Source of the DNA: Streptomyces fagopyri | Lineage (GTDB): Bacteria; Actinomycetota; Actinomycetes; Streptomycetales; Streptomycetaceae | Reading direction: 5' to 3' | DNA length: 64,000 bases | NCBI RefSeq assembly: GCF_009498275.1 | Contig: NZ_CP045643.1 | Span: 558,001-622,000, forward strand | Shown: positions 44,486 through 49,556 of the stretch, piece by piece | How the letters are laid out: every line of letters begins with the position of its first letter | How positions within the stretch are numbered: the stretch's first letter is position 1 | Position numbers and translations under genes: made by a program | Notes under the pieces: generated by a model | What the model saw: the letters and a program-made list of their open reading frames with translations, nothing else | Told to the model about the DNA's origin: nothing | Databases searched by the model: none

Positions 44486-45571
44486 TCAAGGGGCGAAGAC
44501 GGCCTTGTCCGTGCGGGTCTCGAAGCATTCCTTCCCGCCGCCCGTCGCGGGAAGGAAGCAGGCTTTCACCGACATCCCGGGACTGACCACGCTCATGGAG
44601 GTGCGGACGTACGTGTCGGCCTCGCCGCGGCTGGTGACCTGGGCGGCGCGGACGGAGTCGTCGCGGCCGCTCGCCCGTATCTCGACGCGATCGTCCACGT
44701 CCGCGCCCCACATCCGGGCCCAACTCGTCCCGCATTCCAGGCTGTAGCGGACCTGGATCCAGGCGCCCGTCGCGGTCTCGTGCTCGGCGAGGGTCAATGG
44801 GTCGGCGGCGCATCTCATCGCGATCGGGTCCTTGTTCTGACAGGCGGTGTGCCGGCAGAGCGGCCCGGTGGCCGGAGGGGGCGCGGGGGACGGCGACGCG
44901 GGCTTGCGCTGCGAAGTCGGAAGGTGGATGAACACGAGCGTTCCCAGGACCACGGCACAGACCGACGCGAGAGCGGTGACGACGATGACGCGCCGGTTCC
45001 CGGTCGGGCCGGTACGGATATGACCGACGCCGCTCAGGCCCGTCTCACTCTGGCCTGCGTCGGGCCGGGCGGTGGCGGGCGGGGCGGCGGCAGGGGCCGA
45101 AGCCGGTGTCTCCGTTCCGGTGCCGGTGCGCTGTCGGTCCGGAGCCTCCGTTCGCGTGCTGGTGCTCTGCCCTGCGGGTGTCTCCGTTCCGGTGCCGGTG
45201 CGCTGTCCGGCCGATGTCCCCGTTCGGGTGCCGGTGCTCTGCCGGCCCGGCGCCCCACGCGTCGACACATCGACTTCCGTCCGACCCGTCCTGTCCACCC
45301 CATCCGCCCGGTTCACCTCATCCACCCGATGCGTCCGGGCGATGTCCAAGAGCGCCAACGGGTGGTCGGCGGGTTCCCCTGCGAGCCGGCACAGCTCTTT
45401 GACCGCGCTGCGGGGTGGCAGGCTCTTGCCGTTGAGATAGCGCTCCCAGGACGACTTGCTGAAGGTGGTCGCGCTCGCGAGCTGCGCCAGGCTCATGCCG
45501 GTGCGCTGCTTCAACTGCGTGAGTACGACGGCCAGTCGGGCGCCCGACGGTGAGGGTGCGCTGGGCGTCAT
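44486..45571 (-). CDS. Transmembrane XRE protein with extracellular DUF2690-type domain
   Basis: A 361-residue protein. Residues 10-75 form an XRE helix-turn-helix (LTQLKQRTGMSLAQLASATT, then SSWERYLNGKSLPP). Residues 111-158 are a repeated Thr/Gly/Gln linker of four 12-residue units. One membrane helix covers about 194-216. The outer domain starts GPLCRHTACQNKDPIAMRCA and contains IQVRYSLECGTSWARMWGAD, typical of DUF2690. Its ATG overlaps the stop of the upstream XRE gene (ATGA), so the two are co-translated. The layout suggests a one-component envelope sensor; the signal is unknown. Confidence 0.85.
   Translation of the reverse strand: MTPSAPSPSGARLAVVLTQLKQRTGMSLAQLASATTFSKSSWERYLNGKSLPPRSAVKELCRLAGEPADHPLALLDIARTHRVDEVNRADGVDRTGRTEVDVSTRGAPGRQSTGTRTGTSAGQRTGTGTETPAGQSTSTRTEAPDRQRTGTGTETPASAPAAAPPATARPDAGQSETGLSGVGHIRTGPTGNRRVIVVTALASVCAVVLGTLVFIHLPTSQRKPASPSPAPPPATGPLCRHTACQNKDPIAMRCAADPLTLAEHETATGAWIQVRYSLECGTSWARMWGADVDDRVEIRASGRDDSVRAAQVTSRGEADTYVRTSMSVVSPGMSVKACFLPATGGGKECFETRTDKAVFAP
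45098..45241 (-). repeat. In-gene repeat of four 36-bp units
   Basis: It encodes four 12-residue units: QSTGTRTGTSAG, QRTGTGTETPAG, QSTSTRTEAPDR and QRTGTGTETPAS. They form the cytoplasmic linker between the DNA-binding domain and the membrane helix. Confidence 0.85.
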
Positions 45572-46440
45572 CCTCGCAACGCCTTCCAGGAACGCGGCCC
45601 CAGCATGCCGTCGACGTCCAGGCCCGCACGTTGCTGGAACGTCTTGACCGCCCGCAGCGTCAGCGGGCCGAACATGCCGTCGATCCCGCCGGGTGAGATG
45701 CCTGCCCGGCGCAGCAGACACTGTGCCTCGGCGACGTCGACGCCTGTGGCGCCGTAGGAGATCTCGGAGTTTCGGCCGTTGTTGACACCTGCCGACCAGC
45801 CGCCGTCGACGCGGGTGATGCGGCATGTGTAGGAGGGCGGCGGCGACGCCGCGGTGGTGCGGGGCGCCGCGGCGACGGCGGCCGGGGCGCCGTCGTCGCC
45901 GAGACGCAGCATGAGCAGCAGCGCCGCCAGGAGTGCCACGGTCAGAGCGACGACACATGCCGTGAGAGCGAAGTGCGGGAAGCGGCCGGGGGCCGGTCCG
46001 GTGGCGGGTGGTGCGGTGAGCGCGACCGGTGTGGCCGGTACCTCGGGAAGCGGGCCGGCCGAGGTCGCCTGTTGCTCCTGCTCCCCCTCTTCTCGCCCCT
46101 CCCCCTCCTGCCGCTGCTGCCCTTGCTGCGGCTGCGCGGTGGACCGCGGCTGTACGACGGCCTTGGCGCGGCGGCTGTCCCGGGTGTCGGCGGCGATCTC
46201 GTGCAACGCCAACAGGGGGATGGGGTCGGCGCCGGTGATCCGGGCCAGTGCCTCCACCGCCTCCTGGGGCGGCAGTACCGTACCTCCCAGGTACCGCTCC
46301 CACGACTTGGCGCTGTAGCCGGTCTTGGCCGCGAGCTGCCGCATCGTCAGCTCGCTGTGGTCTTTCAGCTGGCGTAACTGCTCCACCAACTGCCGTGCGC
46401 AGGGATCGAGTTCAGCGGGCAGCGCCTTGAAACGCGGCAT
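45568..46440 (-). CDS. Transmembrane XRE protein with extracellular peptidoglycan-binding domain
   Basis: A 290-residue protein. Residues about 15-85 form an XRE helix-turn-helix (RQLKDHSELTMRQLAAKTGY, then KSWERYLGGTVLPP) very like that of the next gene. A Gln/Glu-rich linker (100-125) leads to a membrane helix at 156-180. The outside part has a linker with Cys206 and then a PG_binding_1 domain: VDVAEAQCLLRRAG, GGIDGMFGPLTLRAVKTFQ, LDVDGMLGPRSWKAL. I infer a sensor that touches the cell wall and DNA on one chain. ATG 46440 follows GGGGGA. A secreted peptidoglycan-binding-like gene diverges from it. Confidence 0.87.
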   Translation of the reverse strand: MPRFKALPAELDPCARQLVEQLRQLKDHSELTMRQLAAKTGYSAKSWERYLGGTVLPPQEAVEALARITGADPIPLLALHEIAADTRDSRRAKAVVQPRSTAQPQQGQQRQEGEGREEGEQEQQATSAGPLPEVPATPVALTAPPATGPAPGRFPHFALTACVVALTVALLAALLLMLRLGDDGAPAAVAAAPRTTAASPPPSYTCRITRVDGGWSAGVNNGRNSEISYGATGVDVAEAQCLLRRAGISPGGIDGMFGPLTLRAVKTFQQRAGLDVDGMLGPRSWKALRG

Positions 46441-46702
46441 GTTTTCCCCCAATGCGGTCATGAGCGTGAACGGCGGCCCCCTCCGCTGCTCCGCATTCTG
46501 CATGAGCCCGCCACATCTGTCACAGCTGTCCCACGCAGCCGTCCCACCGGGTGCTGTCGCCGCAGGTCAGCAGGGCGGTCGTCCCGTAAGACCGCCACCT
46601 GTGCCCCAGCCGTAGCCACCCGCCCGGGAGTCCTGGACCTTTGGTCTCGCCACCTGCCGCCCAGTCGGGACAGGTGCCGACCCACGACCGAAAGAGGAAC
46701 GC

Positions 46703-47149
46703 ATGCGACCGAACGCTCTGGGCAGGACCATCGCCGGCCTCATCGTTGTTGCCGGCCTCACCGCCGGCAGTGTGGCGACCGCGGGCACCAGCTTCGCGGC
46801 GACCGCGACCACCGCGCGGACGGCCGCGGCCGCGCAGCCCGCCGCCGCGGCCGCGACGCAGAACTTCGGTCTGACCACGGCCGAGGCGAAGAACGTCCAG
46901 GAGTTCCTCGCGGACTACTGGGGATACACCGACACGATCGACGGTCAGCTGGGCACCAACAGCTGGAAGGCCTTCCAGCGCTGCCTCGCGAGGTACTGGG
47001 GCTACACGGGCGCCATCGACGGGGACCCGGGCACCAACACCATCAAGGCGCTGCAGCGTCTGCTGGCGGACGACTACGGCTACACGGGAGCGATCGACGG
47101 GGTCGCCGGTTCGGGCACCCGGGCGGCGTTCAAGCGCTTCGCCGCCTGA
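46703..47149 (+). CDS. Secreted peptidoglycan-binding-like repeat protein
   Basis: A 148-residue secreted protein. A signal peptide ends near TSFAATA (residue 35). Three short repeats follow: YWGYTDTIDGQLGTNSWKAFQ, YWGYTGAIDGDPGTNTIKALQ and DYGYTGAIDGVAGSGTRAAFK. Each resembles a PG_binding_1 half-unit. No enzyme domain is present. ATG 46703 follows GAGGAA. It diverges from the XRE sensor pair and precedes a CHAP hydrolase, making a wall-related neighbourhood. Confidence 0.85.
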   Translation: MRPNALGRTIAGLIVVAGLTAGSVATAGTSFAATATTARTAAAAQPAAAAATQNFGLTTAEAKNVQEFLADYWGYTDTIDGQLGTNSWKAFQRCLARYWGYTGAIDGDPGTNTIKALQRLLADDYGYTGAIDGVAGSGTRAAFKRFAA

Positions 47150-47639
47150 CCACCTGACCGGTCGGACCCGCCCGACCCACTGACCGGCCTGTCCGATCCG
47201 ACCGTCGAGTGACCCACCCGGCCCGTCCTTGCCCGGCAAGGACGGGCCGCGGATGCGTTCCCTCACCCCTCATCCGGACCGCGTCCCGCACGCCTGGGGC
47301 AACTGCCGTACCGAGAGGCCCGGTTCGTTCCCGCGAACGCACCGACCGTCGGGCCGTCGCCGTCGTCCCACTCTGCGGCCGTCCAGATGGGCGTCCCGGC
47401 AGGTCAGCGCGGACGGCATCCCGTCACGACCGCACTTCGACTGTAGCGGTGGCATCCGTCCCCGCCACGCACCACTCTCGTCCTGTCACCCCGCCGCAGC
47501 CGCGCGTTCTCGTCCCGGCAGTCCTCGTAGGCCCGTTGAGCACGCGGACCGGGCTGGAGAACGCCGGACGCGTACGACGGTCCCTCACACGAGGACGCGT
47601 CGGACGACGCTCCAGCAACCGAAGGAGAACCTCGCCGCC
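47150..47639. other. Gap with a terminator, then the CHAP gene leader
   Basis: About 490 bases. The hairpin at 47220-47248 ends the upstream transcript. The rest is presumably the promoter and leader of the wall hydrolase. I looked for a ydaO-type riboswitch, which precedes some Streptomyces wall hydrolases, and did not see its conserved blocks. Confidence 0.45.
47220..47248 (+). terminator. Hairpin terminator
   Basis: Perfect 14-bp arms, GGCCCGTCCTTGCC and GGCAAGGACGGGCC, around one base, 70 bases after the secreted repeat protein's stop. Confidence 0.85.
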
Positions 47640-49289
47640 ATGGGAAGACTCGCATTCCTCGTTCGCGCCGAAGACGACAGCTCACGGCACAGAGACACGC
47701 ACCGCACGACGCCAGGGTGGCGGATCCGGATCGGTACGTTCGCCGCCACCGCGGCGATGGTCTCGGCCGGCGTCGTACTGGGTGCCGGTCCGGCGGCGGC
47801 GGTCGCGCCGTCCGCGATCAAACTGACCTCCGCGTCCTGCCCCACCGAGATCGTGCAGGGCCAGGTGAGCGGCTGCGTCACCGAGTTGCAGAACCTGCTC
47901 AACGCGCACGGCGCCGGTCTGGTGGTGGACGGTCAGTTCGGACCGAGCACGCTGTACGCGGTCCGTGAGTACCAGGCGTCCACCGCGATCGCCGTGGACG
48001 GGCGGGTGGGCCCGGCGACCAAGAGCAAGCTGTACGCGACCGGAGGCTCGGCGCCCGCCCCCATCAACCTCCAGTCCTCCTCGTGCCCCGCGAACATCGT
48101 CCAGGGTGACAAGGGCGGATGCGTCACCGAGCTCCAGCGACTGCTGCGCCACCACGGCTACGCGGTCGACGTGGACGGCGACTTCGGCGCCGGAACCGCG
48201 AGTGCCGTCCGCAGTTTTCAGACCTCCTACGGCCTCACGGCCGACGGGCAGGTCGGCGCCAACACCAAGCGGGCGCTCTACGACACCGACGAGTCACCGT
48301 CCACCGGCCTGGACCTGAGGTCCTCTTCCTGCCCGGACAACATCGTCGAGGGGCAGAGCGGCGGTTGCGTCGCCACGCTCCAGTCCCTGCTGAACGGCAA
48401 GGGCCAGAACGTCGACGTCGACGGCAGCTTCGGCCCCCAGACCCTGACGGCCGTGAAGGCGTTCCAGTCCGCGAACGGCCTCAGCGCCGACGGCGAGGTC
48501 GGTCCGAACACCAAGGCCGCGCTGTACTCGAACATCGGCGGTGGCGGCGGCAACGGCGCGCCCGCGCCGATCAACCTGAACTCCGCGTCGTGCCCGAGCG
48601 AGATCGTCAAGGGACAGCGCAGCGGCTGCGTCACCGAACTGCAGAGCCTGCTCAACCACCACGGTGCCGACCTCGCCGTCGACGGCGACTTCGGTTCGCT
48701 CACCGACAGCGCCGTCAGGGACTTCCAGGCCGAGAAGGGTCTCTCGGTCGACGGCCATGTCGGACCGAACACCAAGTCCGCGCTGTACGGCGCGGTCACC
48801 CCGCCGTCGTCGCCCCCGCCCGGCGGCGGCTACGGCAAGATCCTCGACGTGGCCGAGGCCGAGGTCGGCACGGTCGAGGGCAGCGCACGCGCGAACAGCT
48901 ACGGTTCCGCCGTGGGTCTTTCGCTCTCCACCAGCGACTACGCCTGGTGCGCGACCTTCGTGAGCTGGGTGGCCAAGCAGACCGGGGCCAGCTCCTACCG
49001 CAACTCCTATGTCTCCGGCTGGGTCAAGCAGGCGCGGGCCGGCAACTACCACCTGTCGGTGACGACCAGCCCGCAGCCGGGTGACATCGTGGCCTTCGAC
49101 TGGGACGGCGGAAGCGACTTCACCGGCGGCAACGAGCACATTGGCATCGTACGGACGGTGTCCTCCGGGTCGTCCTTCACCACCGTCGAGGGCAACACCG
49201 GGAACCCCAACGGCGGAAGCGACGGCGTCTACGTCAAGTCCCGTTCCACGAACAGCGGTTACGACGTGGTCTTCATCCGGGTCCGCTGA
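47640..49289 (+). CDS. Secreted CHAP-domain wall hydrolase with four peptidoglycan-binding repeats
   Basis: A 549-residue secreted protein. A signal ends near GAGPAAAVAPSA (residue 58). Four PG_binding_1 repeats follow, each opening with S-C-P and holding GCVTELQ or GCVATLQ, then VDG-x-FGP and a closing V(D/G)P-T-K. Residues about 395-549 form a CHAP amidase/endopeptidase domain with catalytic Cys437 (AWCATFVSW) and His500 (NEHIGIV). The enzyme should cut peptide cross-bridges or amide bonds in the wall. ATG 47640 follows GAAGGAG. Confidence 0.92.
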   Translation: MGRLAFLVRAEDDSSRHRDTHRTTPGWRIRIGTFAATAAMVSAGVVLGAGPAAAVAPSAIKLTSASCPTEIVQGQVSGCVTELQNLLNAHGAGLVVDGQFGPSTLYAVREYQASTAIAVDGRVGPATKSKLYATGGSAPAPINLQSSSCPANIVQGDKGGCVTELQRLLRHHGYAVDVDGDFGAGTASAVRSFQTSYGLTADGQVGANTKRALYDTDESPSTGLDLRSSSCPDNIVEGQSGGCVATLQSLLNGKGQNVDVDGSFGPQTLTAVKAFQSANGLSADGEVGPNTKAALYSNIGGGGGNGAPAPINLNSASCPSEIVKGQRSGCVTELQSLLNHHGADLAVDGDFGSLTDSAVRDFQAEKGLSVDGHVGPNTKSALYGAVTPPSSPPPGGGYGKILDVAEAEVGTVEGSARANSYGSAVGLSLSTSDYAWCATFVSWVAKQTGASSYRNSYVSGWVKQARAGNYHLSVTTSPQPGDIVAFDWDGGSDFTGGNEHIGIVRTVSSGSSFTTVEGNTGNPNGGSDGVYVKSRSTNSGYDVVFIRVR

Positions 49290-49496: not shown

Positions 49497-49556
49497 TTGA
49501 ACATGTTCAAATCACGGCCTACAGTCGTGCCGTCAGCAAGTTTGAACACGCTCAAA
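49497..49556. promoter_or_regulatory. Pair of TTGAAC-type palindromic operators
   Basis: TTGAACATGTTCAA (49497-49510) is perfect; TTTGAACACGCTCAAA (49541-49556) is a close relative. Both have TTGA...TCAA arms and lie just before the membrane protein start at 49571. They look like TetR-type sites, yet no TetR gene is adjacent. Confidence 0.75.

Follow-up and report, generated by a model that had tools for sequence, protein, structure and literature searches.

How the state of the peptidoglycan is read into transcription is an open question in bacteria, kinases or sigma factors being the means in most of the routes described. Could it be done directly, by regulators that touch the wall with one end and DNA with the other? 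The question is raised by a locus of Streptomyces fagopyri, located in the window analysed here, that is, a whole stretch of 64,000 nucleotides (contig NZ_CP045643.1, positions 558,001 to 622,000) from a chromosome of 8.88 Mb. It carries two overlapping genes for membrane-anchored XRE proteins, XRE1 and XRE2, a divergent gene for a secreted-looking protein, P3, and a CHAP hydrolase gene, which a first-pass annotation had taken together as a possible kinase-free wall-to-DNA signalling module. Our comparison of sequences indicates that XRE1 and XRE2 probably make up one transmembrane transcription regulator of secreted proteins, composed of two translationally coupled chains and associated with a conserved array of GGGAC boxes. 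The features concerned are the following.

45568-46440, minus strand: XRE1 (P0001), 290 amino acids, with HTH_31 at residues 17-73 and PG_binding_1 at residues 233-288 (Pfam, E 4.4e-16)
44486-45571, minus strand: XRE2 (P0002), 361 amino acids, with HTH_31 at residues 12-69 and DUF2690 at residues 243-338 (Pfam, E 2.8e-12)
45568-45571, minus strand: ATGA stop/start overlap of XRE1 and XRE2
46528-46597, minus strand: first array, with GGGAC at 46581-46585 (0), 46541-46545 (+40) and 46528-46532 (+53), and CTGACCTG at 46563-46570 (+15)
46495-46523, minus strand: XRE1 promoter-like GTGACA-N17-CAGAAT, directly past the last box of the first array
46703-47149, plus strand: P3, secreted-looking, with PG_binding-like repeats; start codon 118 base pairs (bp) from box 1
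47365-47434, minus strand: second array, with GGGAT at 47418-47422 (0), CTGACCTG at 47400-47407 (+15), and GGGAC at 47393-47397 (+25) and 47365-47369 (+53)
47640-49289, plus strand: CHAP hydrolase, with four PG_binding_1 domains and CHAP (Pfam); box 1 of the second array is 218 bp from its start codon

Both regulators carry HTH_31 above the Pfam cut-off, and their helix-turn-helix (HTH) regions, in which the motif strings quoted in the first-pass annotation are present, are alike (BLAST E 8e-10, 32% within the alignment). XRE1, whose closest database counterpart comes from Streptomyces fagopyri (96% identity), has a single transmembrane (TM) helix at residues ~155-180 and a PG_binding_1 ectodomain; in XRE2 a low-complexity linker is followed by a single TM helix at residues ~193-215 and then by the DUF2690 ectodomain. 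AlphaFold2 modelled the HTH and one TM helix confidently in both proteins, as well as the ectodomain of XRE2, and gave a poor model for that of XRE1. Each of the 26 XRE1 and 26 XRE2 rows contains one strongly hydrophobic 19-mer, lysines and arginines are at least as numerous inside as outside (26/26 and 25/26 rows, respectively), and outer cysteines are conserved, two in 26/26 XRE1 rows and six in 25/26 XRE2 rows. Charges and cysteines thus predict an N-in/C-out topology for both, contrary to an inside-out arrangement, and the annotated placement of PG_binding_1 and DUF2690 on the outer side agrees with this prediction. A sequence search of the PDB with XRE2 gave no match, Foldseek returned no row below E 0.001, and the VIA rows span mainly the HTH; therefore no fold is claimed for DUF2690. 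The XRE2 linker (45090-45245) contains TG-rich repeats in the window strain that are absent from most of 26 aligned relatives.

An XRE1 profile search of named assemblies gave 131 loci, the best 80 of which were fetched and, together with the window, make up the 81 loci referred to below. The XRE2 HTH follows XRE1 in all 80 fetched loci, all from Streptomyces, and DUF2690 was seen in 77, XRE2 being cut by contig ends in the other three (L039, L075 and L080). Among 79 scored loci, 78 have the four-base ATGA/GTGA overlap at one and the same offset (L032 and L041 were excluded; L035 has an offset of +8), so that a lack of linkage can no longer be held against the pair, whose two genes are inherited as one unit. 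P3 is divergent from XRE1 in 65/80 loci, in keeping with the annotation of a secreted peptidoglycan-binding-like neighbour. Another secreted-looking protein takes this place in 10 of the other 15 loci, and none in 5. The replacements, for which Pfam was run on representatives, are I36-type proteins in L042, L051, L074, L077 and L085, PG_binding_1 proteins in L083, L089 and L091, a protein without Pfam match in L086 (beside one with two PG_binding_1 domains) and, in L021, the CHAP hydrolase itself, in the array-side position held elsewhere by P3. The CHAP gene with its four repeats is thus correctly described in the window, but it is linked to the pair in just 10/80 loci (the contigs of L018 and L020 end before its position is visible), and therefore what is conserved is not a set of four genes; it is the XRE pair with the array and, diverging from it, a gene for a secreted protein. 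At E 1e-25 the system was found in 1 of 81 genera among 148 genomes of the class, namely Streptomyces. A phage origin was rejected: 19 viral stretches fit a pattern and none encodes a relative.

The array lies between the divergent genes, where blocks of conservation stand out when the intergenic regions of close relatives are aligned. Its consensus has four GGGAC boxes, at 0, +25, +40 and +53, with CTGACCTG at +15; GAAGTGACGTC often precedes the latter. Taking the best register per locus, exact GGGAC occurs at these four positions in 73, 20, 49 and 73 of the 81 loci, and exact CTGACCTG in 63; the +25 box of the first array in the window differs from GGGAC. Array 10-mers recur across 62 non-redundant intergenic regions, GCTGACCTGC in 33 and GGGACGTCCC in 28, for example; no 10-mer exceeded 4 of 62 in any of five shuffled controls. 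The promoter-like 10-mer ATGCAGAATG is found in 35 of the 62 regions, and the GTGACA-N17-CAGAAT pattern in 12/81 loci. An RNA element was discarded as an explanation of the array (consensus fold of -2.06 kcal/mol, 1/11 pairs changed on both sides, no Rfam match at E 0.1).

A sequence-only model built from 62 arrays found three strong matches in the window's own genome, the fourth-ranked having E 0.01: the site of the pair (3.2e-15), positions 47353-47439 of the window, before CHAP (2.0e-8), and a site 0.37 Mb off, before the only other P3 gene (2.5e-8). A matrix for which 67 loci served as training set, the window and 13 other loci being left out, ranked these two window sites highest (44.0 and 21.2; next -1.5). 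Over 61 Streptomyces genomes, scanned with Infernal's stricter filters, the array (E 1e-4) was present in 20/21 genomes with XRE1 versus 3/40 without (p = 5.5e-12, without kinship correction). Presence of XRE1 here means E <= 1e-25 plus an ectodomain match, so a diverged XRE1 could escape; the status of G033 was assigned from a separate reading, and G009, G022 and G047 may coincide with loci whose sequences went into the model. The array is upstream of XRE1 in 16 of the 20 genomes carrying both. In G005 it is found past the pair, in front of a secreted-looking gene, and it lies elsewhere than at XRE1 in G011 (before P3, 4.4 Mb away), G048 (before an Inhibitor_I36 gene, 0.76 Mb away) and G043. 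In G046, the XRE1 genome lacking a match, a weak array is present where one would expect it (score 2.9), and two of the three array genomes without XRE1, G012 and G031, have weak matches that overlap open reading frames (ORFs).

We observed the same in a set of 50 XRE1 genomes, all of which had a match at E 1e-5; 45 of them had supplied rows to the model, and the five held out (L012, L014, L019, L022 and L083) all matched at E 1.6e-10 or better. Of 22 extra matches in this set, 17 were read. A further XRE1-XRE2 pair with a secreted or wall-type neighbour accompanies five of these (L239, L240, L242, L249 and L252), secreted-looking genes follow three (L248, L251 and L254), and L243 lies next to a DUF2690-like fragment and to a gene that encodes four PG_binding-type repeats; the rest are further pairs or ambiguous. 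The unread matches were assigned by coordinates, G549:C9, G550:C143, G563:C51 and G574:C3:5402151 to the XRE1 loci L088, L072, L070 and L076, and G573:C120 to the tandem site of L069, where P3-type genes stand in tandem and a second array is 949 bp away.

The distance between the array and the gene behind it proved nearly fixed. Box 1 lies 94-155 bp from the P3 start codon in 65/66 loci (111-124 in 46; the other is at -11), and in a wider range, 121-258 bp, from the XRE1 start. Before non-P3 or unlinked targets the array stands 108-140 bp from the start codon in 21 of 25 cases, which were chosen by us with start codons picked by eye and include, among the 21, a weak array in L153 (2.9). Among others, the distance is 109 for CHAP in L021, 108-113 for linked I36 genes and 116 for the unlinked one of G048, 111-127 for PG_binding genes and 108-120 for unlinked P3 genes; the outliers are L089 (332), L248 (187), L249 (211) and L255 (184, no real array). 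This count left out loci without a secreted gene (L027, L054, L060, L067 and L078), further XRE pairs (L239-L241, L246 and L250), L243, where the adjacent DUF2690-like fragment makes the start ambiguous, L244, L245, L247 and L253, and L139 and L144, where no target was seen. Inhibitor_I36-type secreted proteins stand behind the array instead of P3 in L140, L077, L042, L051, L074, L085 and L248 (Pfam on L140, L077 and L248). That the array is merely carried along by P3 was rejected, given the same spacing before non-homologous targets and the P3 genes without array in 3/4 XRE1-less genomes (G012, G018 and G050; not G053), a difference that is not significant in a 2x2 test on P3 genes (see below). 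Together, the near-fixed position of the array before secreted, often wall-binding genes suggests a kinase-free way of reading the wall and adjusting these proteins.

A natural fusion bears on how the two regulators act. G053 (L165:1213-1791) encodes a 193-residue protein that joins an XRE1-type and an XRE2-type HTH, with neither TM helix nor ectodomain. This genome lacks XRE1, but an unlinked P3 in it is still preceded by an array, at 108 bp. The same joining of XRE1-type and XRE2-type HTHs is seen in nine more full-length clusters (P0244-P0252; 84-88% identity), and two HTH_31 domains also occur in P0255, P0257 and P0311; among 392 genomes, G053 is the only match at E 1e-45. The fusion suggests that XRE1 and XRE2 act together. 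By eye, P0255 seems to retain TM-like segments.

We propose that both HTHs would bind the GGGAC boxes jointly, each protein reading similar half-sites, as their similarity and the repetition of boxes would allow, and would thereby control P3 and related genes and probably their own operon. Autoregulation is plausible at the window locus because the last box of the array adjoins the XRE1 promoter-like site; the pair may act as a repressor or as an activator. With respect to the proposed wall-to-DNA module, control of secreted wall proteins is supported by the arrays before P3, the second P3 and CHAP in the window's genome and by the CHAP gene standing at the array in L021; DNA binding is suggested by an array tied to the pair.

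What the pair would sense is less certain. The outer domain of XRE1 may bind peptidoglycan, and its occupancy of the wall might alter how the pair sits on DNA. The XRE1 PG_binding_1 resembles the domains of three replacement targets, which align to the XRE1 ectodomain at 33-37% identity (P3 gives a short match only), and products and sensor may for this reason touch the same wall sites, so that secreted proteins with similar domains might compete with the sensor and close the loop. We tentatively put forward, as an attractive possibility, a kinase-free wall-occupancy circuit: an XRE1-XRE2 hetero-oligomer would span from peptidoglycan to a multi-box operator, the secreted wall-binding products, some of them with the outer fold of the sensor, would compete with it and so set their own dose, and Streptomyces would have re-used one operator cassette, at constant spacing, in front of targets that are not homologous (P3, I36 proteins, CHAP hydrolases and Rv2525c-like hydrolases).

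Several observations weigh against this interpretation as a whole. Array and P3 are found apart: of 17 full-length P3 copies (five partial rows, G017 twice, G042 and G049 twice, were dropped), 10 have an array in front and 7 none, four XRE1 genomes carry P3 without array, and a 2x2 test at the level of P3 (9/13 versus 1/4) was not significant (p = 0.25). Some arrays have no visible target, and the array upstream of CHAP in the window was not seen before CHAP in other CHAP-carrying loci. Lastly, the HTH resembles that of RodZ at least as well as those of DNA binders.

The alternative that survives best retains the pair as regulator of the array genes and replaces the signal: an antibiotic, a protease, or the enzyme of a competitor or phage would be sensed instead of peptidoglycan. 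The presence among the targets of Inhibitor_I36 proteins and of secreted-looking proteins without Pfam match speaks for it, as does the confinement of the system to Streptomyces in the class sample, and it deserves serious consideration, though we find it somewhat doubtful in view of the recurrence of PG_binding_1 in XRE1, P3, CHAP and many replacement targets and of the three replacements that align to the XRE1 ectodomain. It is unlikely that another regulator, such as a two-component or sigma-factor system, binds the array and has the XRE pair as one target. Such a regulator would fit the adjacency of the XRE1 promoter-like site to the array, the P3 genes that lack one and the four XRE1 genomes with arrays only elsewhere; against it, the array follows XRE1 presence, G012, G018 and G050, which have no XRE1 at E 1e-25, have P3 without array, and G053 retains the array with fused HTHs as the only part of the system kept from both proteins. 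Finally, that these are RodZ-like morphogenetic scaffolds and not transcription factors is very improbable despite the likeness of the HTH, since many DNA-binding HTHs score nearly equal (9.9 and below), Pfam gives HTH_31 with PG_binding_1 or DUF2690 and not the RodZ families, and DNA binding would account for the array as well as for the fusion of two HTHs.

Some observations concern the surroundings of these genes. P3 has one PG_binding_1 match (36.8 bits against a Pfam cut-off of 23) and a start that, by eye, is signal-peptide-like; a P3 match at G022:C54:75175-75618 contains one in-frame TGA. The array upstream of CHAP is not a fresh copy of the P3 promoter (best alignment 41 bp at 76%). 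Past CHAP, two near-palindromes, TTGAACATGTTCAA and TTTGAACACGCTCAAA, at 49497-49556, upstream of an ORF at ~49562 without Pfam match, resemble by eye the operator of another regulator. At ~3897.8 kb of C1 in the window's own genome, L006 is a paralogous tandem without array, in which an HTH-TM protein lacking an ectodomain precedes an HTH-TM-DUF2690 protein; the array as a feature of DUF2690 paralogues was rejected (top scores of -4.4 and -7.2 at two paralogous loci). XRE1 of G033, G034, G046 and G055 lies, by eye, near similar housekeeping neighbours. In G052, a strong array (41.3; L139) stands beside transposase-like genes with no visible target, and is possibly a displaced operator.

The XRE system offers a compact, testable candidate for wall reading, in which sensor pair, operator and targets can all be named, and the two-fused-HTH protein is a natural minimal version for reconstitution. 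Our literature searches, which covered few subscription papers, retrieved no report of the pair/array system, and within that literature, where a single unrelated paper mentions it, DUF2690 gains a first functional context. Among known proteins, RodZ shares a membrane-anchored HTH of similar fold; it differs in binding MreB and in its ectodomain, and at E 0.01 Pfam matched neither of its families, HTH_25 and DUF4115. CseBC is the kinase pair of the SigE system, which, unlike the XRE pair, uses a sigma factor with kinase and response regulator. Also within Streptomyces, the envelope stress regulon of SigE in Streptomyces coelicolor (PMC6767563) connects the wall with transcription; a term search of the main text found 'XRE', 'helix-turn-helix' and 'peptidoglycan-binding' zero times.

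Other parallels exist among regulators that act from the membrane. Transmembrane transcription regulators, as described in PMC10269533, combine a DNA-binding domain and a TM helix in one chain, most commonly single-pass. XRE1 and XRE2, each with a DNA-binding domain predicted inside and a TM helix, fit this broad kind; they differ in that two chains are coupled, each with an ectodomain of its own kind, and in that the array is extended, and 'peptidoglycan' and 'XRE' occurred zero times in a term search of the main text of that source. In co-component systems such as VtrA/VtrC and ToxR/ToxS, according to PMC9214523, the products of overlapping or neighbouring genes act jointly across the membrane, and XRE1 and XRE2 are likewise adjacent and overlapping. 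VtrA/VtrC has its DNA-binding domain in one partner, whereas XRE1 and XRE2 both have HTH, TM helix and ectodomain. We claim no homology and do not class the pair as a co-component system; it may work somewhat like one.

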